From the NCBI RefSeq assembly GCF_024345415.1, contig NZ_JAGQBB010000026.1, forward strand, positions 1 to 33,025: 33,025 nt of DNA, given 5' to 3'. This DNA comes from Synechococcus sp. Tobar12-5m-g. GTDB taxonomy: Bacteria > Cyanobacteriota > Cyanobacteriia > PCC-6307 > Cyanobiaceae. Position numbers and translations under genes: made by a program. The notes beneath the pieces are model-generated. The model ran no database searches, was not told the origin of the DNA, and saw nothing but the letters and a program-made list of their open reading frames with translations. This document shows, piece by piece, positions 11,981 through 33,025 of the stretch (position 1 is its first letter; each line of letters begins with the position of its first letter).

Positions 11981-12664
11981 ATGGCCGAACAGAGCAACAC
12001 CGAGATGACCGAAACGGGCGAGGTGGCGGCGGTCCCAGGGATCTCCCCGGAGCCGGAACTGTCGAGCGAGGCGGAGCCTTCGCCCGACTCCCGGCCCGCC
12101 GCCGGCAGCGAGCGGGGCCGCCCAACCGGCGCAGGTCGCGAGAGGGGGCGCGAGGGCGGACGGGAGGTCGGGGGCTTCCGGATCCGACTGAGTGAAAACG
12201 AGCAGCGGGCCGCCCAGCTGGTGCAGGAGAGCTTTCAGTTGCGCTCCACCGTGGCCGCCCTGGGCTTCTCGATCCGCACCGTGGCCCAGTTGCTGGAGCA
12301 GGGCAAGCTCGATGAGCTGGTGGTTCAACAGAGGGCCCAGGGTGGCGGCCGCCCGGAGGTGTCCCGGGACCCGTCCCGCGAGGCTACCCCGGTGCGCCGG
12401 CTGGAGCGGGGCGAACGCCGCGGCGACACCAGGGGCGAGACAAGGGGTGATGCCCGGGGCGGCGAGCGGCGCGGCGGCCGGCCCGATCCCTTCGCCCGCC
12501 CCAGCCGTCCCCAGCCCGCCCCACCCGAGCCGCTGCCCCTTGATGACACCCCTCTGGTGGAGGTGGCACCACTGCTGGATCCGGCCCTGCTCGATCAAGG
12601 CCTTGGCGATCAAGCCGTGGCCGAGGAGCCGATCCTGCCGGTCACGATCGAACCGCAACCGTGA
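11981..12664 (+). CDS. Unrecognised protein with RGG-type repeats, coupled to trpS
   Basis: A 227-residue protein of unknown function. Three parts are visible. An acidic then Arg/Gly-rich N-terminus covers residues 1-65. A compact, probably helical core spans about 66-115 (FRIRLSENEQRAAQLVQESF and STVAALGFSIRTVAQLLEQG). A basic low-complexity segment at about 138-167 has many RG/RGG units (RRGDTRGETRGDARGGERRG), followed by a Pro-rich acidic tail. RGG-type segments often bind RNA, but that is an inference. Its stop overlaps the trpS start by 4 nt (GTGA), so the two genes are translationally coupled. Confidence 0.75.
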   Translation: MAEQSNTEMTETGEVAAVPGISPEPELSSEAEPSPDSRPAAGSERGRPTGAGRERGREGGREVGGFRIRLSENEQRAAQLVQESFQLRSTVAALGFSIRTVAQLLEQGKLDELVVQQRAQGGGRPEVSRDPSREATPVRRLERGERRGDTRGETRGDARGGERRGGRPDPFARPSRPQPAPPEPLPLDDTPLVEVAPLLDPALLDQGLGDQAVAEEPILPVTIEPQP

Positions 12665-13692
12665 GCGATCGCCCCAGGGTGCTCTCCGGGGTGCAGCCCA
12701 GTGGCGCCCTGCACCTGGGCAATTGGCTGGGGGCGATCCGCAACTGGGTGGCCCTGCAGGAGTCCCACGACACCTTTTTCTGTGTGGTGGATCTTCACGC
12801 GATCACCGTGCCCCACGATCCTGCCCGGCTGGCGGAGGACACGCTTCGCACAGCCGCCCTCTACCTGGCCTGCGGCATTGATCCGCAGCGCTCCACGGTG
12901 TTCGTGCAGAGCCAGGTCGCGGCCCACGCCGAGCTCACCTGGCTGCTGAATTGCCTCACGCCGTTGAACTGGCTGGAGCGGATGATCCAGTTCAAGGAGA
13001 AGGCTCTCAAGCAGGGCGACCAGGTGTCGGTGGGTCTGCTGGATTACCCGGTGCTGATGGCCGCTGACATCCTCCTCTACGACGCCGATCTGGTGCCGGT
13101 GGGTGAGGACCAGAAGCAGCACCTTGAGCTGGCCCGGGACATCGCCCAGCAGCGTGTCAACGCCCGCTTCGGCGCCAAGGGCCCCGATGGCGAGCCGATC
13201 CCGATTCTCAAGGTGCCCGAGCCGTTGATCCTCTCCGAGGGGGCCCGGGTGATGGGCCTCAGCGACGGCCGCAGCAAGATGAGCAAGAGCGACCCCAACG
13301 AGGGCTCCCGCCTCAACCTGCTCGATCCGCCCGAGCTGATCACCCGGAAGATCAAACGGGCCAAAACCGATGCGGTGCTCGGCCTGGAGTTCGGGAACGC
13401 TGAGCGCCCCGAGGCCGACAACCTGCTGGGGCTCTACGGGCTGCTGAGTGGCCAGAGCCGGGAGCAGGTGGCCGCAGCGTGCGCGGCGATGGGCTGGGGC
13501 CAGTTCAAGCCCCTGCTGGCCGAAGCGGCCGTGGAGGCGCTGCGGCCGCTGCAGGGGCGCTACGCCGAGATCCGCGCCGAGACGGGTTACCTCGATCAGG
13601 TGCTGCGGGAAGGGGGCGATCGGGCCTCTGCGGTGGCTGGGGCAACCCTGCAACGGGTCCGAGCTGCTCTGGGATTTCTGGCGGCAGGCTGA
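12661..13692 (+). CDS. trpS: Tryptophanyl-tRNA synthetase
   Basis: Class I aminoacyl-tRNA synthetase that charges tRNA-Trp. The 343-residue product has GVQPSGALHLGNWLGAI near the N-terminus (the HLGN form of the HIGH motif), the central DLHAIT and QVSVGLLDYPVLMAADILLYDADLVPVGEDQKQHLELARD blocks split across residues 110-160, and the SKMSKSDPNEGSRL signature (KMSKS) near 205. Length is normal for bacterial TrpRS. The start is a GTG at 12661 within the GTGA overlap with the upstream gene. A hairpin follows the stop. Confidence 0.96.
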   Translation: MSDRPRVLSGVQPSGALHLGNWLGAIRNWVALQESHDTFFCVVDLHAITVPHDPARLAEDTLRTAALYLACGIDPQRSTVFVQSQVAAHAELTWLLNCLTPLNWLERMIQFKEKALKQGDQVSVGLLDYPVLMAADILLYDADLVPVGEDQKQHLELARDIAQQRVNARFGAKGPDGEPIPILKVPEPLILSEGARVMGLSDGRSKMSKSDPNEGSRLNLLDPPELITRKIKRAKTDAVLGLEFGNAERPEADNLLGLYGLLSGQSREQVAAACAAMGWGQFKPLLAEAAVEALRPLQGRYAEIRAETGYLDQVLREGGDRASAVAGATLQRVRAALGFLAAG

Positions 13693-13900: not shown

Positions 13901-14545
13901 ATGCCGTTATGGCCCCCCGGGGTTTTGTCGCTCCAACCGCTGAGCCTGTCGCTGCTGCTGGCGGGTCTGCCGCTGCTCTGCTCGTCCGCCGCGTCTGACC
14001 TGAGCCCGACCCCCAAGCCCGCCAGCGTGATCCTCCCCACAGCCAAGGGACCGGGCTTGTATGCGCTCACGCCCGAGCGCCGCGCCGCCCTCGAGACGAT
14101 CCGCTTTGCGGAGGGAACCTGGAGCGGCGGCAGCACGAAGGGCTATCGCATGTTGTACGGCGGGGGATCGTTCCAGAGCTTTGAGCGCCATCCCGACAGG
14201 GTGGTGGTGAAGCGGTATGCCAGTGCCGCCGCCGGGGCCTATCAATTCCTGCCGGGGACCTGGCAGGCGGCCCAGCGCCAGCTCGGCCTCTCCGGGTTCG
14301 GTCCCGCCAGCCAGGATCAGGCCGCCCTCCACCTGGTGGAGAGTCGCGGGGCCCTGGTGGACGTGGATCGGGGCGTGCTCTCCGACCGTGCGATCGATCG
14401 ACTGGCCCAGGAATGGGCGTCTTTCCCGACCGCCTCAGGCGGTAGCTCCTATGGACAACCCAGCAAGACGGTGACCCAGCTCCGCACATTCCACCGCGCA
14501 GCCTTGCGGCGCCACCAGCTCAGGCTTGGCGGCTCCCCAGCCTGA
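13901..14545 (+). CDS. Exported lambda-R-like lytic transglycosylase (GH104)
   Basis: A 214-residue protein with an N-terminal signal peptide (hydrophobic residues about 12-30, SSAAS cleavage region) and a domain resembling the phage lambda endolysin R (glycoside hydrolase family 104), which cleaves peptidoglycan. Matching blocks in order are TIRFAEGTW with candidate catalytic Glu71, GYRMLYGGGSFQSFERHPDRV, SAAAGAYQFLPGTWQ, LGLSGFGPASQDQAALHLVE, and DRAIDRLAQEWASFP with YGQPSK. Phage R has no signal peptide, so this looks like a domesticated, secreted version. There is no holin or phage gene nearby. It overlaps the convergent PEP-CTERM remnant by 26 nt. No Shine-Dalgarno is visible at the ATG, so the exact start is moderately uncertain. 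Confidence 0.85.
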   Translation: MPLWPPGVLSLQPLSLSLLLAGLPLLCSSAASDLSPTPKPASVILPTAKGPGLYALTPERRAALETIRFAEGTWSGGSTKGYRMLYGGGSFQSFERHPDRVVVKRYASAAAGAYQFLPGTWQAAQRQLGLSGFGPASQDQAALHLVESRGALVDVDRGVLSDRAIDRLAQEWASFPTASGGSSYGQPSKTVTQLRTFHRAALRRHQLRLGGSPA

Positions 14546-15113
14546 TCCTGCGACGTCGTTGGCGTGACCAGGCAAAGGTCATGGAGGCACCTGCCAGCGG
14601 CAGCGGGTCGGGCACCTGGATCGGAATGGCACCGCCAAGGTCACGAAAGGCGTTTCCATTCACGAGAGGCGTGACGAAGCCGGAATGGCTGTGGGCACAC
14701 CTGTGCTCGTCTTGATTTTTAACCATTGTCCACCCGCGTAGTTCTGGGTAAAATGGGCCTTGAAATCGGCGCTGAAGGAGAGTTGAAGGCTGGGGTTGCC
14801 CGTTTGATCTGGGTGTAGGTGGCGGTTGGGATTGGCGAGATCAATGGAGAAAAAAAACTCCCCCTGAGATGGCTCCATACAGAATGCCGGAAGCGGTCAA
14901 CAGCAATGTCGCCAAAAATGTTCTGGTACGCTGTGATTCCAGCAATCGTGAATTTTGTCTTGGTGCCAGCCGTGGGTGCAGAAGGAATCGAATAGTTCAA
15001 GGGGATTTTGGTGAGCGTAGTGCTCCCTTGAGTAAAGTACCAGTAGCTGTTGTTGCAATACACAGCATTAGCAGGTTAACTGGAGCCAATCACCCTTGGG
15101 AGGGCCACATTGA
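14520..15113 (-). pseudogene. PEP-CTERM protein, C-terminal part (IS5-disrupted)
   Basis: The minus strand encodes the C-terminal two thirds of a cyanobacterial PEP-CTERM surface or extracellular protein, spread over three frames. Reading downstream: NVALPRVIGSS, an in-frame TAA, then PANAVYCNNSYWYFTQGST, KFTIAGITAYQNIFGDIAVD. A frameshift near 14880 gives GEFFFSIDLANPNRH, PSLQLSFSADF and QNYAGGQWLKI. A second shift near 14700 gives GFVTPLVNG, DLGGAIP, and the sorting tail VPDPLPLAGASMTFAWSRQRRRR. The tail has the Pro-rich signal, hydrophobic helix and Arg cluster expected of PEP-CTERM (exosortase) substrates. It continues the fragment at 16565-16857; the IS5 element lies between them. Not functional as it stands. 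Confidence 0.72.
15110..15113. repeat. Left copy of putative IS5 target duplication (TTGA)
   Basis: TTGA here and at 16565-16568 flank the IS5 terminal repeats. Four bases is within the range for IS5-group elements. Because it is short, it supports but does not prove the boundary. Confidence 0.45.
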
Positions 15114-16564
15114 GGGAACCTCAAATAATTGAGTTACAGTCGCATTTTCAGGAATAAAGGCTATATTCTATACATCCTTATTTTACAACCATATGGGCCA
15201 GCGCGGTTTTTGGGATGAAGTATGACGGATGGAGAAGATCGAGGGAATGCAGTCCTCGTTACCTAGAATCAAAGAGCTTATTTCCTGGGAGTTCTTCCGC
15301 TTTCTGCTCGTGCAGGGCTATGCCCAAGATTGGAAGAGTAATGCTAGCCGCAAAGCTATTGACCCAGTAATGATGTTCAGGATGCTGGCACTTTAGCAGT
15401 TGTGCAACTTGAGCTACGAAGAGCTTGAATATCAGGTCAACCATCGTCGTTCGTTCGAAGAATAAATTGGTCTTTGAATTATGAATTCAAATTCAGATGC
15501 CAAGACAGTCTGATTCTTTAGGGAGAGACCGATGAATGCGGGAGCGATTGAGGGGCTGTTTCAGTTGTTTAATCAGTTGCTCTGTGAGGCTGGATATTAG
15601 CCCAGAGGAGGGCAGATCGATGATGCTACAATAAAATCCTTTCCAATCCATAGAAACACAAGTGAGGAGAATCAAGAGATGAATTCAGGTAATGTCCCTG
15701 ACTCATTCAAGGAGAGCCCAAACCACTTGCCCCAGAAGGATTTTGGCACACGGTGGGTGAAAAAGAATGACGTAAGTAACTACGGTTAGAAGAACAGTAT
15801 TAACATTGAAAGGCACATGAATTCATTCGCAAATATGATGTTACACTGACAAGTCTTCATGATTTTCAAATGCTGCTTGCCTTGTTTGACCATGAGAATG
15901 AGCAGAATTTCTTCTTTGCAGTCTCTGTCTATGCAGGCAACATATTTTAGGAGTTTCTTATAGCCGCTGGCTTCGAAAGCTTTTTCCATGAGAAGGGCCA
16001 AAAGAACAAGCCACTATCAGAGGCCAGCAAAGCATTCAACTCAGTAAAGTCCAGGATAAGAGCTCTAGTTGAACATGTCTTTAGTCAAATTGTCATCATA
16101 ATGAAAGGGAAGTATGCCCGTCTGATTTGCCTTCCACGAGTCAAGGCTTGGTGGGGACTTCGTAAACTTAGCTTCAATATTCGTCGGATTACGATGAATG
16201 CTGCGTGACTAGTCACTGCAATTGGGCAAGGGTTAATCATGTAAACATGACCTCTCTTGTAGCCGTTCAGGGGGTGGTTATGGCGTGTACGGCTCTCCGA
16301 AACGCCACCTGTCGTGCCTGTGGCTGGTCTGCAGGCGCGAAATGGGGCCAGTTGGGGCCATGGCGATGGGTCTTTAGATATCTTCAAATGACAGCCAGAG
16401 GAGCAGATCCATTGCACTGCAATGCATCTCAGTTTCATCCAGCCCCCTGATCGGGTACCCTCTCTTTAACCATGGACAAAGGTGGATGTGCAAGGACTCT
16501 CCCATGGTAGAATTATTTATTGCCTTCTATAAGCCGGCCAACATAGCAATTCTTCGAGGTGCCT
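15114..16564. mobile_element. Decayed IS5-family element inside PEP-CTERM gene
   Basis: About 1450 bp, clearly more AT-rich than its surroundings, holding a dead IS5-type transposase on the plus strand. The left end begins GGGAACCTCAAATAATTG. The reverse complement of the right end begins AGGCACCTCGAAGAATTG. These are imperfect terminal repeats with 14 of 18 positions identical. TTGA flanks both sides. The homology of the disrupted PEP-CTERM gene stops exactly at these ends (TPTLS at 16565 side, NVALP at 15113 side). The transposase ends at 16208, leaving about 350 nt of unexplained DNA before the right end, including the palindromes GTGACTAGTCAC (16205-16216) and TCATGTAAACATGA (16237-16250). 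The element cannot move on its own. Confidence 0.7.
15247..16208 (+). pseudogene. IS5-family transposase, multiple stops
   Basis: From the ATG at 15247, one frame reads ELISWEFFRFLL, then SNASRKAIDPVMMFRMLAL, a TAG, then LCNLSYEELEYQVNHRRSF, two stops, then DAKTV, a TGA where Trp is expected, FFRERPMNAGAIEGLFQLFN, a TAG, PRGGQIDDATI, and VKKNDVSNYG before another TAG. After one frameshift near 15820 it continues as HEFIRKYDVT, DFQMLLALFDHENEQ, VYAGNIF, a TAG, then FESFFHEKGQKNKPLSEASK, KSRIRALVEHVF, and AWWGLRKLSFNIRRITMNAA. These are the IS5-family blocks in order. The first catalytic Asp (IDDATI) and the Glu (VEHVF) remain. The second Asp, expected in the ADSAY-type motif, is Val here (AVSVYAG). 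Damage is mostly point nonsense changes, with a single frameshift. Confidence 0.82.
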
Positions 16565-16857
16565 TTGATAGGGTTGGGGTGCCGCCATCCCAGAACTTCA
16601 GGTTACGGGCGTCATCAACAAAGAAGAATTGTTTCCTGAGCGCATCATAGGCGAAAGCATTTGATGAACCCGTGAGGTTTATTTTGAAGATCGCCGTGGC
16701 TGATGGAATGAGGGTATTGATCTCATAGATCTTATTGTTATCGGCAATACTACAAATGAAATCTGCTCTGGCGCTCAGGGCCAAAACAGAGCCCCCATGG
16801 CCCCGCCAGGAGAGCGAAGGCAGATTTCGAGAAAGCCCTGACGGCTGCTTCATGGCT
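16565..16857 (-). pseudogene. PEP-CTERM protein, N-terminal part (IS5-disrupted)
   Basis: The minus strand from an ATG at about 16857 (MKQPSGLSR) encodes a weak signal-peptide region, then ADFICSIADNNKIYEIN, a TAIFKINLTGSSNAFAYDALR segment, FFFVDDARNLKFWDGGTPTLS, and stops matching at 16565, where the IS5 end begins. The same kinds of blocks occur near the N-terminus of cyanobacterial PEP-CTERM proteins. The downstream half is at 14520-15113. The signal peptide looks frame-damaged: the +1 frame gives a better hydrophobic stretch (FALLAG) midway. An open reading extends upstream to 16925, overlapping the TM2 gene by 4 nt, but the upstream part lacks signal-peptide character. Confidence 0.65.
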
Positions 16858-16921: not shown

Positions 16922-17380
16922 TCAAGGCTCCCTGTATACCACTCGGCCGCGCTCATCGTTGCCCACATCGAGGAGGTCGGCGATCATCAGTCGCTCGATC
17001 TCCGATCGGACCGTCCCACTGGAAGATCCACTGGGCAGCTCCACCACCAGGATGGCATCGTTGATGGTGAAGCCTTGGTGACCCACCTGCCGAGCCAGCA
17101 GGAGTAACTGTCGCTCGATCGACGGGGGGCGTGAGCGATCGGCCAACGCCAGGGCCTCCTGGAGGAGCAGGGGCTGGTTGGCTTTCTCCACCATGTCAGG
17201 GATCAGAAACAGATCGATCAGCTGCCCGATGCCGCACCAACCCATGGTCAGCAACCAGATCGTGCCGCTTAGGGGCTTGCGGGCGTAGAACCGTTGGATT
17301 CCGCAGACGCCGGCGATCGAGAGGGCCCAGAGCAGGTAGGCGATCGCCACCCGGCGCCGTTCAGGCAACGGCTTGGGCAT
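16922..17380 (-). CDS. TM2-domain membrane protein
   Basis: A 152-residue protein. After a basic start (MPKPLPERRRVAIAYLLW), two membrane segments with a tight turn match the TM2 domain: AYLLWALSIAGVCGIQRFYA, then SGTIWLLTMGWCGIGQLIDLFLIPDMV, where the DLFLIPDM ending is typical. The C-terminal 75 residues (ERQLLLLARQVGHQGFTINDA, EIERLMIADLLDVGN) look like a winged-helix-type or partner-binding domain often found after TM2 in cyanobacteria. Function unknown. The ATG at 17380 is preferred; the frame is open to 17485 but the extra N-terminus lacks character. It is intact between two decayed insertion sequences. Confidence 0.82.
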   Translation of the reverse strand: MPKPLPERRRVAIAYLLWALSIAGVCGIQRFYARKPLSGTIWLLTMGWCGIGQLIDLFLIPDMVEKANQPLLLQEALALADRSRPPSIERQLLLLARQVGHQGFTINDAILVVELPSGSSSGTVRSEIERLMIADLLDVGNDERGRVVYREP

Positions 17381-17559
17381 GGCCTGAAAACTCGTCGCAT
17401 CACAATCTGAACCTAAGCCAGCAGTGGCGGGTGAGCAGCCGAGCTGTTCGTAAGCTGGGCATTGCGCATCAAACTGGAGCACCAACCCTTTGCTGACAGG
17501 TGATCCTGAACGGACCTTGCCGGAGATCGATGCCGAACTGATCAGGATGGTGTGTCTGA

Positions 17560-17710: not shown

Positions 17711-18628
17711 TTATAGGACAGATTCGGCCCCTGACATCGTTAACCCCGGGCGGGAGGAACAAGGTTCAGAAGAAGTATAGACCTCATAGGGAGTTCTGCC
17801 TCCCAAAGAGCTGTGTGGTCTTACATGGCAGTACCTCCACAGGAAGCGGGCCAGGCTGATCTCTGCATCCCAGCCATCGCTATAGGCACGCAGGTAGACC
17901 TCAACTCGGCTTCGCCGAGAAGCCTTCGGCTACGTACTTGACCGTACGCCATAGCCTCTCCACCAGGATGTTGTCGTAGCACCGCTTTCTTCCGGACCAG
18001 CTGATCTTGATCTTCTCGACCTGAAGCCTAGTCACGAAGTCAGTGGAGGTGAACTGGCATCCCTGGTCGGAGTGAAAGATCTCTGGCTTACGGCCACCTG
18101 AAAGTGCCACATCTCCAGGGCATCCAGACAGAACTCCGTGTCAAGGCTGTTGGTGAGCTTCCAGCTGAGCACATTCCTGGAGTAGAGATCAACGACCGCC
18201 ACCAGGTAGAGAAAGCCTTTCTGCAGCGGGATGTAGGTGATATCGGTCTCCCACACCTGATCCACAGCCGTGACCTGTTTGAGATCCACCAGGCAGGGGA
18301 AGCGCTCGGATGGATCGCCGGGAATCGTGGTGCGAGGCTTCTGGTAGATCGCCCGTAAACCCATGCGGCGCAGGAGGTTTCGCACGCGGTCACGGCTGAT
18401 CGGAATTCCTTCTCTGGCCAGGTAGTCCACCATCCGGCGACTGCCGCTGCAGGGATCCTCCAGGTAGTGAGCGTCAATCCTGGCCATGCGCCGCATCGTC
18501 GATTCACGCACCGGAGTGGGCCGGTAGTAGAGCGTGGATTGAGGCAGGCCCAACAGCTCGCACTGGCGGCTGACGCTGAACTCAGGGTGGTCGTGATCGA
18601 CCAGCTTGCGCAGTTCATGGGCATTACA
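17711..18628 (-). pseudogene. IS3-family OrfB (DDE transposase), frameshifted
   Basis: The frame with conserved sequence begins near 18628 (NAHELRKLVDHDHPEFSVSRQ) with no clear start codon. It continues through STLYYRP, a helix-turn-helix region (GSRRMVDYLAREGIPISRDR), AIYQKPRTTIPGDP, and the catalytic core VWETDITYIPLQKGFLYLVAVVD. A 2-nt insertion near 18103 shifts the frame to KPEIFHSDQGCQFTS and NILVERLWRTVKY, giving the second Asp and the Glu of DDE. A 31-nt palindromic insertion (17903-17933) breaks it again, after which EVYLRAYSDGWDAEISLARF, CHVRPHSSLGGRTPYEVY and SGAESVL lead to TAA at 17711. All catalytic residues survive in pieces, but no intact protein can be made without several frameshifts. 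Confidence 0.85.
17903..17933. repeat. 31-nt palindromic insertion inside IS3 orfB
   Basis: Between the codons for VKY and EVYL of OrfB lie 31 extra bases containing two adjacent small hairpins: CTCGGC-TTC-GCCGAG (17905-17919) and AGCC-TTC-GGCT (17921-17931). GGCTTC/GAAGCC can also pair. The protein homology resumes immediately on either side, so this is a discrete insertion, like a small mobile palindromic repeat. I found no second full copy in the window. Confidence 0.6.
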
Positions 18629-18632
18629 TCAG

Positions 18633-18911
18633 TTAAGACTTCTTTTTGAGCCACTCCAGCTCCATCTGGAGTTTGCCGATCTGCTGGAACAGCTCGGCCT
18701 CCTTGGCCTGGCTCTCCTCTTTGTCGGTGCTCTTCTTGCCTCGGGTGAACAGCTCGCTGGCACCGTCCAGGAGTTGCCTCTTCCACTGGCTTACCTGGAT
18801 CGGGTGAATGCCGTGGTTGGCGGCGATCTCCTGCAGTGTCTTGCGGCCGCTGATCGCTTCCATGGCGACCCTGGCTTTGAACTCGGGGCTGTGGGTACGG
18901 CGCTTGCTCAT
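18633..18911 (-). CDS. IS3-family OrfA (transposase DNA-binding subunit)
   Basis: A 92-residue protein: basic start MSKRRTHSPEFKARVAMEAI, helix-turn-helix TLQEIAANHGIHPIQVSQWK, KRQLLDGASELF, then a coiled-coil with a leucine zipper (EAELFQQIGKLQMELEWLKKK). This is the typical IS3 OrfA that binds terminal repeats and joins OrfB by programmed frameshifting. The A-rich AAAAAG before its TAA would be the expected slip site. However, the preserved OrfB sequence is in the +1 frame rather than -1, so a further indel probably lies just downstream. The ATG is at 18911. Confidence 0.88.
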   Translation of the reverse strand: MSKRRTHSPEFKARVAMEAISGRKTLQEIAANHGIHPIQVSQWKRQLLDGASELFTRGKKSTDKEESQAKEAELFQQIGKLQMELEWLKKKS

Positions 18912-31518: not shown

Positions 31519-31573
31519 CGGCTCCGTAAAGTTCAGCTTCGTGCGGGCCGCTCAGCCGGCTCCGGGCGAAGCC

Positions 31574-31658
31574 GGAGAGGTGGCTGAGTGGTCGAAAGCG
31601 AACGACTCGAAATCGTTTGAAGGGAAACCTTCCGTGGGTTCGAATCCCACCCTCTCCG
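31574..31658 (+). tRNA. tRNA-Ser (CGA anticodon)
   Basis: Class II tRNA of 85 nt. The acceptor stem is GGAGAGG (31574-31580) with CCTCTCC (31651-31657) and discriminator G73. A D-arm follows, then the anticodon stem AACGA/TCGTT with loop CTCGAAA, giving anticodon CGA for UCG serine codons. A long variable arm with AAGG/CCTT and T-arm GTGGG-TTCGAAT-CCCAC complete it. CCA is not encoded. An integrase gene lies just downstream, so its 3' end is a likely phage or island attachment site; no second copy of the 3' end is in the window. Confidence 0.96.
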
Positions 31659-31843
31659 TTAACCGAGATTTTTGGGGTTTTCCTGGGGGTCCCTTGACGT
31701 CCCTGGATGTACCCATACTGATTGCAGTGCAGCGGATCTGGGGGATTGGGGCGTCCCAAGGCATCCCTGGAAAAACCGGGGCAGAAAAAAATAGTGGTGG
31801 TGTAATAGGTGGTTACGATTTGGAGTGGTGGTGTAAATGCGCC

Positions 31844-32838
31844 ATGGCTCTAACCGACGCAGCTGTTCGCGGGCTGCCACTGCGGTCTCAGCGTTACCGG
31901 GTTTCCGACAGCGCCGGCCTGCTGCTCGAGGCGGATCCGGTTGGCGGCAAGTACTGGCTCTGGCGCCACCGTTTTCCTCCCACCAAAGACGGCCGCCTGC
32001 AAGATCTGAGGCTTGGGCCCTATCCAGCCGTCTCTCTGAAAAGAGCCCGCGAACTCAGAGATGAACAGAAAAAGCTGCTGCACGACCAGGGAATCATTCC
32101 CTGCGAGGCCAAGCAGCGGCACAAAAGCGAGCGTTTGGGCGTCCATCAGAAGCTCACGTTTGAGGCGGTGGCCCTCGATCGGCGCCGCACCAAGAGCGCC
32201 GGCACCTGGAGCGCTCGCCATGGCGAAGACGTGATCAAGAAACTCAACAAGGATATTCTCCCGGCGATCGGCAGCATGGCCATTGCCGAGATCTCCGCTG
32301 TGGATTGCCTGGGCGTGTTGCGCTCCATTGAGAAGCGGGGTTCTCACGAGACCGCCAAGCGCTCGCTTGGGGTCATCAGCATGGTGCTGGATTACGCCGT
32401 GGCCCTCGGCCATTGGACCAGCAACCCAGCCCACTCCCTCAAGCGCCACGCCCCGGTCAAGCAGACCATCACCCACTTCCCCTGCCTGCTTTGGAGCGAG
32501 CTGCCCGAGCTCTTGGGGGCGATGCGCACCAACACCGTCAAGGCAGATCCCACCACCCTCAACGCCATGTGACTGTTGGCACTGACCTTCGTGCGCACCA
32601 GCGAGCTGATCGCTGCGCGATGGGAGGAGATCGATCCCAGCTGGCGCGGACCAGATGGCGATCACCAGGCTGTCTGGACGGTGCCGGCCGAGCGGATGAA
32701 AGGCAAGCGCGGCATCCGGAAGGAGCATCTGGTGCCCCTGAGCCGTCAGGCCGCGGCGATCCTGCAGGCCCAGTCCCTCCTCACAGGCCCCAAGGGCTTC
32801 GTGTTCAAGAGCTTGCGCACCAGCAGCGGTGACTTTCA
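31844..32838 (+). pseudogene. Tyrosine integrase, in-frame stop and lost C-terminus
   Basis: A P4-type integrase with an N-terminal arm-binding domain (MALTDAAVRGLPLRSQRYRV, GKYWLWRHRFPPTKDGRL, LRLGPYPAVSLKRARELRD), a core-binding SAM-like domain (HGEDVIKKLNKDILPAIGSM, KRSLGVISMVLDYAVALGHW) and the start of the catalytic domain (ALTFVRTSELIAARWEEID with the first catalytic Arg). At 32570-32572 the frame has TGA after LNAM where CGA would fit. It reads on in the same frame to SLRTSS near 32830, and then homology ends. The HxxR and Tyr nucleophile are missing, replaced by the end of another transposase. It lies 185 nt after tRNA-Ser in a more AT-rich tract, so it is the remnant of an island integrated there. 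Confidence 0.88.
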
Positions 32839-32865
32839 GGGAAGGTGTCACTCCTTGGCTGCCAC

Positions 32866-33025
32866 TCAGGCGGCCTGGACCAAGGCTAGCGCGAGGATCG
32901 GTTCGGGCTCTTCTGGTGGCTTGTTGATCCACACTTCTTCGGGTTGACGCCAGCAGCGGGTGCTTCGGCTCCACCGAGTTGGATTGGCCCGACGGGCCTT
33001 CTCGTAGACATCGACTCGCTTCTTG
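32866..33025 (-). CDS. Transposase C-terminus (partial at window edge)
   Basis: Minus strand, running off the right edge: 52 residues of coding sequence end in LVQAA and TGA (32866). VDVYEKARRANPTRWSRSTR then QPEEVWINKPPEEPEPI resembles the C-terminal tails of rve/IS3-family transposases. The integrase homology stops at about 32830, and the sequence between (GAAGGTGTCACTCC) could be the IS terminal repeat. It probably disrupted the integrase. Family call is tentative because only the tail is visible. Confidence 0.5.
   Translation of the reverse strand, partial: KKRVDVYEKARRANPTRWSRSTRCWRQPEEVWINKPPEEPEPILALALVQAA

Follow-up and report, generated by a model that had tools for sequence, protein, structure and literature searches.

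A decayed surface-protein gene, interrupted by an insertion sequence and bearing a putative exosortase sorting tail, in Synechococcus sp. Tobar12-5m-g

The window, a stretch of 33,025 bp from Synechococcus sp. Tobar12-5m-g (contig NZ_JAGQBB010000026.1), very probably carries the remains of a gene whose product was a secreted beta-propeller surface protein with an exosortase-sorted tail; the gene was interrupted by an insertion sequence (IS) and decayed together with that element. The sorting system outlived this substrate, since the genome still has an undamaged exosortase and two further undamaged proteins bearing this type of tail. We would class the gene as a defunct substrate belonging to a variant of the PEP-CTERM/exosortase system that is found in Cyanobiaceae, and its tail was probably served by the exosortase still encoded in the genome. 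From the sequence comparisons given below we infer that the intact protein would have been exported over the inner membrane and retained in that membrane by a short tail at its C-terminus, composed of V-P-x-P, an uncharged core of 13 residues and an arginine-rich end. The exosortase would then cut near V-P-x-P, and the cut protein would be passed on toward the cell exterior.

The N-terminal fragment of the gene (16566..16853, minus strand) is an open frame of 96 codons ending in ...GGTPTLS at position 16566, and it aligns with the residues that precede the insertion point in intact orthologues. The C-terminal part (14520..15113, minus strand) begins with NVALPRVIGSS directly at the left end of the insert, contains an in-frame stop as well as several changes of frame, and runs out in the sorting tail VPDPLPLAGASMTFAWSRQRRRRIRLGSRQA (14523..14615, minus strand), with its stop codon at 14520-14522. 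The initial annotation had placed these two fragments at the ends of an insert with imperfect terminal repeats and TTGA on both sides, all of which was confirmed. It had also proposed that excision of the insert and one TTGA, with a single base change, would rejoin the gene, and this part failed. After excision the junction lies one base out of frame, an in-frame TAA remains (SS*PANA), and between this TAA and the VPDPLPLAG tail the homologous frame shifts through 0, 2, 0, 1, 0; repair by one base change is thus ruled out, as a stop and several frame changes are left. That these lesions arose from errors in sequencing, leaving the IS as the one genuine change, is very unlikely. One frame change does sit at a run of eight A, but the lesions are several and of different kinds, the transposase of the IS is likewise broken, and the genome is estimated to be 99.97% complete, although this figure does not measure base accuracy. 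The splitting of a gene by an IS is in itself ordinary gene decay.

The inserted element (15114..16564) measures 1451 bp and is tentatively labelled IS5-like, as in the initial annotation. Of the marks expected of an IS5-type element (a DDE transposase, inverted ends and a 4-bp target repeat), it has inverted ends, identical at 14 of 18 positions (a chance probability of about 4e-6 for fixed ends), and a 4-bp repeat, TTGA, at the left (15110..15113) and right (16565..16568), the latter overlapping the end of the N-terminal fragment. A search for related copies in 300 genomes drawn for this purpose supported these boundaries, because six of ten related copies elsewhere for which both ends were located showed identical 4-bp flanks. 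The insert is longer than five related full copies, each of 1245-1249 bp. Within it lies a nested segment of about 200 bp with inverted ends of its own (16258..16460), to which stretches of 71-83% identity were present in four other genomes (G147, G114, G314 and G290); at the three of these loci that were checked, the rest of the IS was not found. The transposase reading frame is broken, and its match to a Pfam DDE transposase family is just under the cut-off (22 against 23 bits).

Orthologues were sought with the stitched fragments as query in 400 drawn Cyanobiaceae genomes. The N-terminal fragment alone had matched only itself among 60 genomes, and no relative was found in the genome contigs. 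The stitched query found relatives in which one protein aligned continuously through the insertion point to both fragments, so an origin of the two halves from unrelated proteins is ruled out and their initial reading as halves of one protein stands. The intact relatives lack the insert, so that neither of the two outcomes named as refuting in the initial annotation occurred. Three IS-free continuous orthologues (G102, G337 and G342) lie in the same gene neighbourhood as in the window. This neighbourhood consists of a gene which we take to be trpS-like and which served as syntenic anchor (12661..13692, plus strand), a conserved gene of 214 amino acids (13901..14545, plus strand) and a TM2-domain gene kept in relatives (16922..17485, minus strand; PF05154, 49.2 bits). 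The 214-amino-acid gene and the surface-protein gene are convergent and overlap by 26 bp in the window and by 25 bp in G337 and G342. A provisional lysozyme-like name for this neighbour was dropped, as it had no Pfam match.

The order of events is less firmly indicated. The gene may have been dead through small lesions, or dispensable, before the IS landed in it, which we hold to be a substantial possibility though somewhat short of even. An orthologue without IS (G127) carries two stops, and a comparison of eight syntenic regions found the gene in G337 and its absence between kept neighbours in G002, G063, G008 and G227. Among the other regions, that of G087 had a gap of 1.5 kb without match, that of G003 stops at a contig edge and that of G162 gave no trpS match. 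The rejoined site being one base out of frame points the same way. Against this, all the lesions could postdate the insertion, and the IS has decayed too.

The tail was characterised on 59 proteins, of which 58 were collected by pattern and nearness to the stop codon and one was the second substrate of the genome itself. The consensus is V-P-G-P-L-P, a core of 13 residues and S-R-x-L-R-x-R, in part by construction because of the way in which the 58 were picked. The residue between the prolines is Asp in the window (VPDP) and Gly in 49, Ala in eight and Ser in one of the 58 tails, with Glu in none. In 30 tails taken by profile score alone, with a profile itself built from three tails, all 30 showed 13 uncharged residues followed by a basic cluster, and the distance from the end of the match to the stop was -2 to 14 residues in every one. 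The core is 16-19 residues long in six homologues.

Curated models recognised these tails poorly, which counts against the sorting reading. The tail piece of the window had no NCBIfam or Pfam match, and none of the 59 tail proteins was among the matches listed for PF07589 and TIGR02595. The cyano_PEP model TIGR04155 matched 21 of the 59 weakly at E<=1 (best E 0.0013), and the two intact substrates of the genome scored 10.9 and 14.9 bits against its cut-off of 21.6. Not all tails are missed, because the cistern family PEP-CTERM model NF033947 matched two of the 59. The tail, initially labelled PEP-CTERM, is not of the textbook type, given the lack of Glu, the shorter core and the weak or absent match to curated models, and is better described as a variant of it in Cyanobiaceae. 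Within the genome a fourth tail match was counted at E<=0.05; the weak hits C11, C8 and C44 were attributed to chance, being antisense to long ORFs or at their ends. A search of phage records with the tail gave no match.

The genome was found to encode an exosortase, and the two genes that flank it are intact and bear this type of tail. It matched PF09721 with 91.7 bits (cut-off 25.7) and TIGR04178 with 48.7 bits (cut-off 23). The suggestion that exosortase-sorted proteins had been part of the envelope of this lineage is thus supported, and in the present tense, by this locus; this enzyme would be the one that acts on these tails. An alignment was made of 31 of the 34 exosortases in hand (27 of them from the 30 best-scoring loci of the 400-genome search), leaving out L021 and L022 as over-long and L033 for a stop. 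C184, N227xxR230 and H256xxxG260 were invariant in all 31, the enzyme of this genome having the Cys, Arg and His residues, and Cys, Asn-x-x-Arg and His-x3-Gly are given as the exosortase motif by Haft et al. 2006 (PMC1569441).

Cyanoexosortase A (CrtA, TIGR03763) is the best-matching exosortase model for the enzyme of this genome and matched all 31, and the two CrtA-linked models TIGR04153 and NF050013 gave sub-threshold matches to the associated protein and to the HpsJ-like neighbour. Together with the weak TIGR04155 matches, this would fit an ordinary CrtA and an ordinary cyano_PEP tail that are both under-scored by their models. We regard this as rather unlikely. The enzyme of this genome scored 105.3 bits, that of G008 127.1 and that of G092 62.2, all below the cut-off of 150 that was passed in 59 of 194 genomes of the class. 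In a tree the 31 were set apart from 30 curated CrtA, the 30 best CrtA loci of the 194-genome search, with a support of 100/100, the root being arbitrary and long branches calling for caution. The tail model, moreover, found only two of the 194 class genomes, both of them Cyanobiaceae.

The body of the protein is predicted to be a beta-propeller, based on a model of the orthologue L163 and not of the window protein. This model (pLDDT 74) matched Pizza6 with an E value of 7.2e-8 and VIA with Z scores up to 14.9. No clear signal peptide was seen by eye at the N-terminus of the window gene, which counts against the reading proposed here. The full-length set comprised the 11 of 39 loci that were readable throughout; it did not include L164, L172, L173, L175, L177, L179, L180 or the loci consisting of a tail only. 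A type IX tail suspected by eye on L172 was dropped, as no such model matched. Planctomycete and verrucomicrobial homologues of the predicted propeller carry VPEP tails of the PEP-CTERM type at the same alignment column, and one body with two tail types across phyla is a natural tail swap.

Among the 400 Cyanobiaceae genomes, with tails called at E<=1e-8, 53 had both tail and exosortase, 16 the exosortase only, five the tail only and 326 neither, so that an exosortase was found in 53 of 58 tail genomes. The 16 and the five count against the sorting reading. The tail could also be an uncut C-terminal membrane anchor, its link to the exosortase reflecting shared ancestry of the genomes; most tail genomes indeed fall in one genus (g6), and the 16 exosortase genomes without tail would fit as well. 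We consider this improbable, as at the genus level all eight tail genera fall within the 12 exosortase genera out of 59 (2e-7), the core was of 13 residues in every score-picked tail, in homologues this column is occupied by recognised PEP-CTERM tails and the exosortase of the genome itself is flanked by tail genes. A core of 13 residues is short for a membrane span.

We find it fairly likely that the Cyanobiaceae possess an exosortase dialect of their own, in which a divergent CrtA-like enzyme would serve a Glu-free tail with a fixed core of 13 residues. This tail would be present on as many as 20 or more proteins in a genome and would largely escape annotation models. Bodies would pass between planctomycetes or verrucomicrobia and picocyanobacteria, the tail being exchanged for the host's own version. 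With the PEP-CTERM/EpsH system (TIGR02595, PF07589, PF09721), as described in PMC1569441, it has in common a C-terminal motif, a hydrophobic stretch and a basic end, the catalytic motif of the exosortase and several substrates per genome; it differs in the near-invariant Pro-Glu-Pro of the latter and in core length. Cyanoexosortase B of Nostoc punctiforme, for which PMC12188702 describes a polysaccharide link, belongs to another subfamily and organism and was studied by experiment, while the present work is on sequence; crtB is reported to be missing from some unicellular cyanobacteria in common use as models.

Picocyanobacteria rank among the major primary producers. The sorting of their surface proteins was little described in the literature searched (exosortase with Synechococcus or picocyanobacteria), and nothing was found there on PEP-CTERM in Cyanobium. 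The Cyanobiaceae tail and enzyme yield a list of candidate surface proteins which current models mostly skip. A comparable case is the ice-binding protein of Nostoc sp. HG1, described in PMC7783341 as having a body common to planctomycetes and a cyanobacterium and, in the cyanobacterial protein, a sorting tail; that tail is described as being of the PEP type, whereas in the present case the cyanobacteria have one tail type and the other phyla another. The occurrence of this body with either tail type, depending on the phylum, offers a natural tail-swap test of exosortase recognition.

The gene split by an insertion sequence (IS) on the minus strand of the window (14520-16853) is ordinary in itself. 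It leads to what appears to be a Cyanobiaceae form of the exosortase signal that current models mostly miss; this is testable and of moderate interest. The main points of the initial annotation were correct. The Tobar12-5m-g genome is 2.95 Mb (completeness estimate 99.97%), and contig C19, the whole window, has 33025 bases. A minus-strand open stretch ends in ...FWDGGTPTLS at 16566, and NVALPRVIGSS begins beyond an insert of 1451 bp (15114-16564). The insert ends are identical at 14/18 positions (about 4×10−6 by chance with the ends fixed), TTGA flanks each side and several inner frames hold transposase remnants, one piece of which matched DDE_Tnp_1 at 22 bits (cut-off 23; query typed omitting a stop). 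This anatomy had been described correctly. The proposal that removing the insert and one TTGA, with a single-base change allowed, would rejoin the halves did not stand: minus insert and one TTGA, the halves sit out of frame by one base, an in-frame TAA follows the junction and the homologous frame shifts several further times ahead of the VPDPLPLAG tail. The broken gene is more decayed than previously held.

The IS boundaries were tested on ten related copies with two recognisable ends. Identical 4-bp flanks were found in six (L152, L155, L156, L157, L158 and L159), five of them 1245-1249 bp long; the flanks do not match in L151, L154, L161 and L147, the last from Tobar12-5m-g. By this comparison the predicted boundaries of the window IS hold. 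The window copy exceeds its 1245-1249-bp relatives by about 200 bp. Segment 16258-16460 has inverted ends and 71-83% identity to stretches in four other Cyanobiaceae genomes (G147, G114, G314 and G290), and the rest of the IS had no match at three checked loci sharing it. Most simply, this segment would be a second, nested element; at about 200 bp it resembles a small, non-coding mobile element. Elsewhere in Tobar12-5m-g, DNA matches to the IS are partial (115 and 152 bp), and L147, a diverged relative, retains both ends 1267 bp apart. In G003, of the same genus, contig C9 starts within a related IS (C9:1-600, L144) and contig C8, bearing its TM2 gene, likewise ends nearby.

The best relatives of the window are named Synechococcus, Cyanobium and Synechococcaceae, and from these names we take the family searched to be Cyanobiaceae. 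A stitched read-through of the broken gene matched 61 of 400 genomes (E≤0.01); among the matches listed, tail-only ones are the majority and long body matches few (G127, G102, G337, G342 and G087). Intact orthologues were sought and found in G102 (Synechococcus sp. ATX 2A4; open, 301 residues, 44% identity) and in G337 and G342 (360 residues each), all crossing the insertion point without a break. G337 and G342 conserve the order TM2, orthologue, 214-aa gene, trpS-like gene, so the IS-free gene lies between the same neighbours. The 3' ends of the gene and the 214-aa gene overlap by 26 bp in the window and by 25 bp in both genomes. The closest relative, G127 (55%), carries a copy with two stops and no IS, and the gene is absent though its neighbours are present in G002 (same genus), G063, G008 and G227. 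The locus seems to be lost readily. In G102 the order is TM2, orthologue, remnant, second tail gene, trpS-like gene (L106:1899-5658); the paralogue and remnant adjoining the orthologue suggest turnover of this protein family there.

An AlphaFold2 model of the ATX 2A4 orthologue (11 sequences, mean pLDDT 74) gave a beta-propeller followed by a C-terminal helix of low confidence. The top Foldseek match was the designed Pizza6 propeller (E 7×10−8), and VIA-align gave Z up to 14.9. Partial propeller-body matches in genus g5 (L082, L083 and L084, from G208, G086 and G295), spanning roughly stitched-query residues 28-221, lie within open frames of 1763-4464 residues.

The exosortase gene was also located, on contig C15 of Tobar12-5m-g (PF09721, 91.7 bits, cut-off 25.7), with a protein weakly matching a CrtA-associated family (21.6, cut-off 100) and an HpsJ-like gene (55.5, cut-off 140). 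Intact genes on both sides of the locus end in VPAPLPILG...FSRKLR(S/N)RI. With the larger tail model (E≤0.001) three tails were found in the genome, those of the two flanking genes and the dead one, and the sorting system is predicted to be alive. Cys184, Asn227-x-x-Arg230 and His256-x3-Gly260 are invariant across 31 Cyanobiaceae exosortases; in Haft and colleagues (PMC1569441) the same residues form the putative triad. All 31 matched TIGR03763, the cyanoexosortase A (CrtA) model, at E≤0.001, but the Tobar12-5m-g enzyme with 105 bits against a cut-off of 150. The 31 enzymes formed their own group (100/100) in a tree beside 30 curated CrtA; its branches were long, its root arbitrary and its comparison set chosen. 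The Tobar12-5m-g exosortase probably works like cyanoexosortase A and was not filed as a member.

Exosortase was present in 69 of the 400 Cyanobiaceae genomes and the tail (V-P-x-P, uncharged core, Arg-rich end) in 58 at E≤10−8: both in 53, exosortase only in 16, tail only in five and neither in 326. All eight tail genera fall inside the 12 exosortase genera of 59 (2×10−7), a comparison taking partial account of shared ancestry. Tail and exosortase thus co-occur in this family. The 16 exosortase genomes lacking this tail at that threshold (e.g. G033, G076 and G101) may therefore use another tail form. Twelve of the 400 genomes hold at least 20 tail matches each (E≤0.05). Among 194 genomes across the class, the tail was found at E≤0.001 in Tobar12-5m-g and G008 only, and TIGR03763 matched above cut-off in 59.

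Between the tail prolines, 58 tails carry Gly (49), Ala (8) or Ser (1), never Glu; the window tail has Asp. The core measures 13 residues in 30/30 tails, a set picked by profile score, and 16-19 in six VPEP-tailed homologues. For 59 tail proteins, TIGR04155 matched 21 at E≤1 (best 0.0013) and the cistern family PEP-CTERM model two; neither TIGR02595 nor PF07589 was listed as a match for any.

Searching named genomes with the orthologues gave 39 loci. Among them, the same body occurs at 29-35% identity in nine MAGs, eight of planctomycete type and one of Verrucomicrobiales; the C-terminus was readable in seven of these nine, and all seven have VPEP. The five readable cyanobacterial homologues (two from one genome) have V/IPGPLP. 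Both motifs occupy one column in an alignment of 11. Six VPEP proteins were scored by PF07589 over cut-off in 4/6, TIGR02595 in 2/6 and at least one model in 5/6; three cyanobacterial homologues scanned had no sorting-model match at E≤0.1. This would be a natural tail swap, with different tail types on the same body. Since the motifs share a column and the VPEP ends are recognised, the cyanobacterial end is placed at the homologues' recognised exosortase signal, which provides the strongest evidence for its putative role. For another cyanobacterial PEP-CTERM protein, a planctomycete origin has been put forward (PMC7783341).

Elsewhere in the window, two transposase pieces at 18032-18911 on the minus strand (PF00665 integrase core, 48.7 bits; HTH_Tnp_1, 41.8 bits) form a pair that is presumably IS3-like. 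A tRNA-Ser gene (31573-31659, plus strand) is followed, close to the contig end, by a weak phage-integrase match (32576-32944, plus strand; 16.7 bits, cut-off 27.1), and the pair may mark the boundary of an integrated element.
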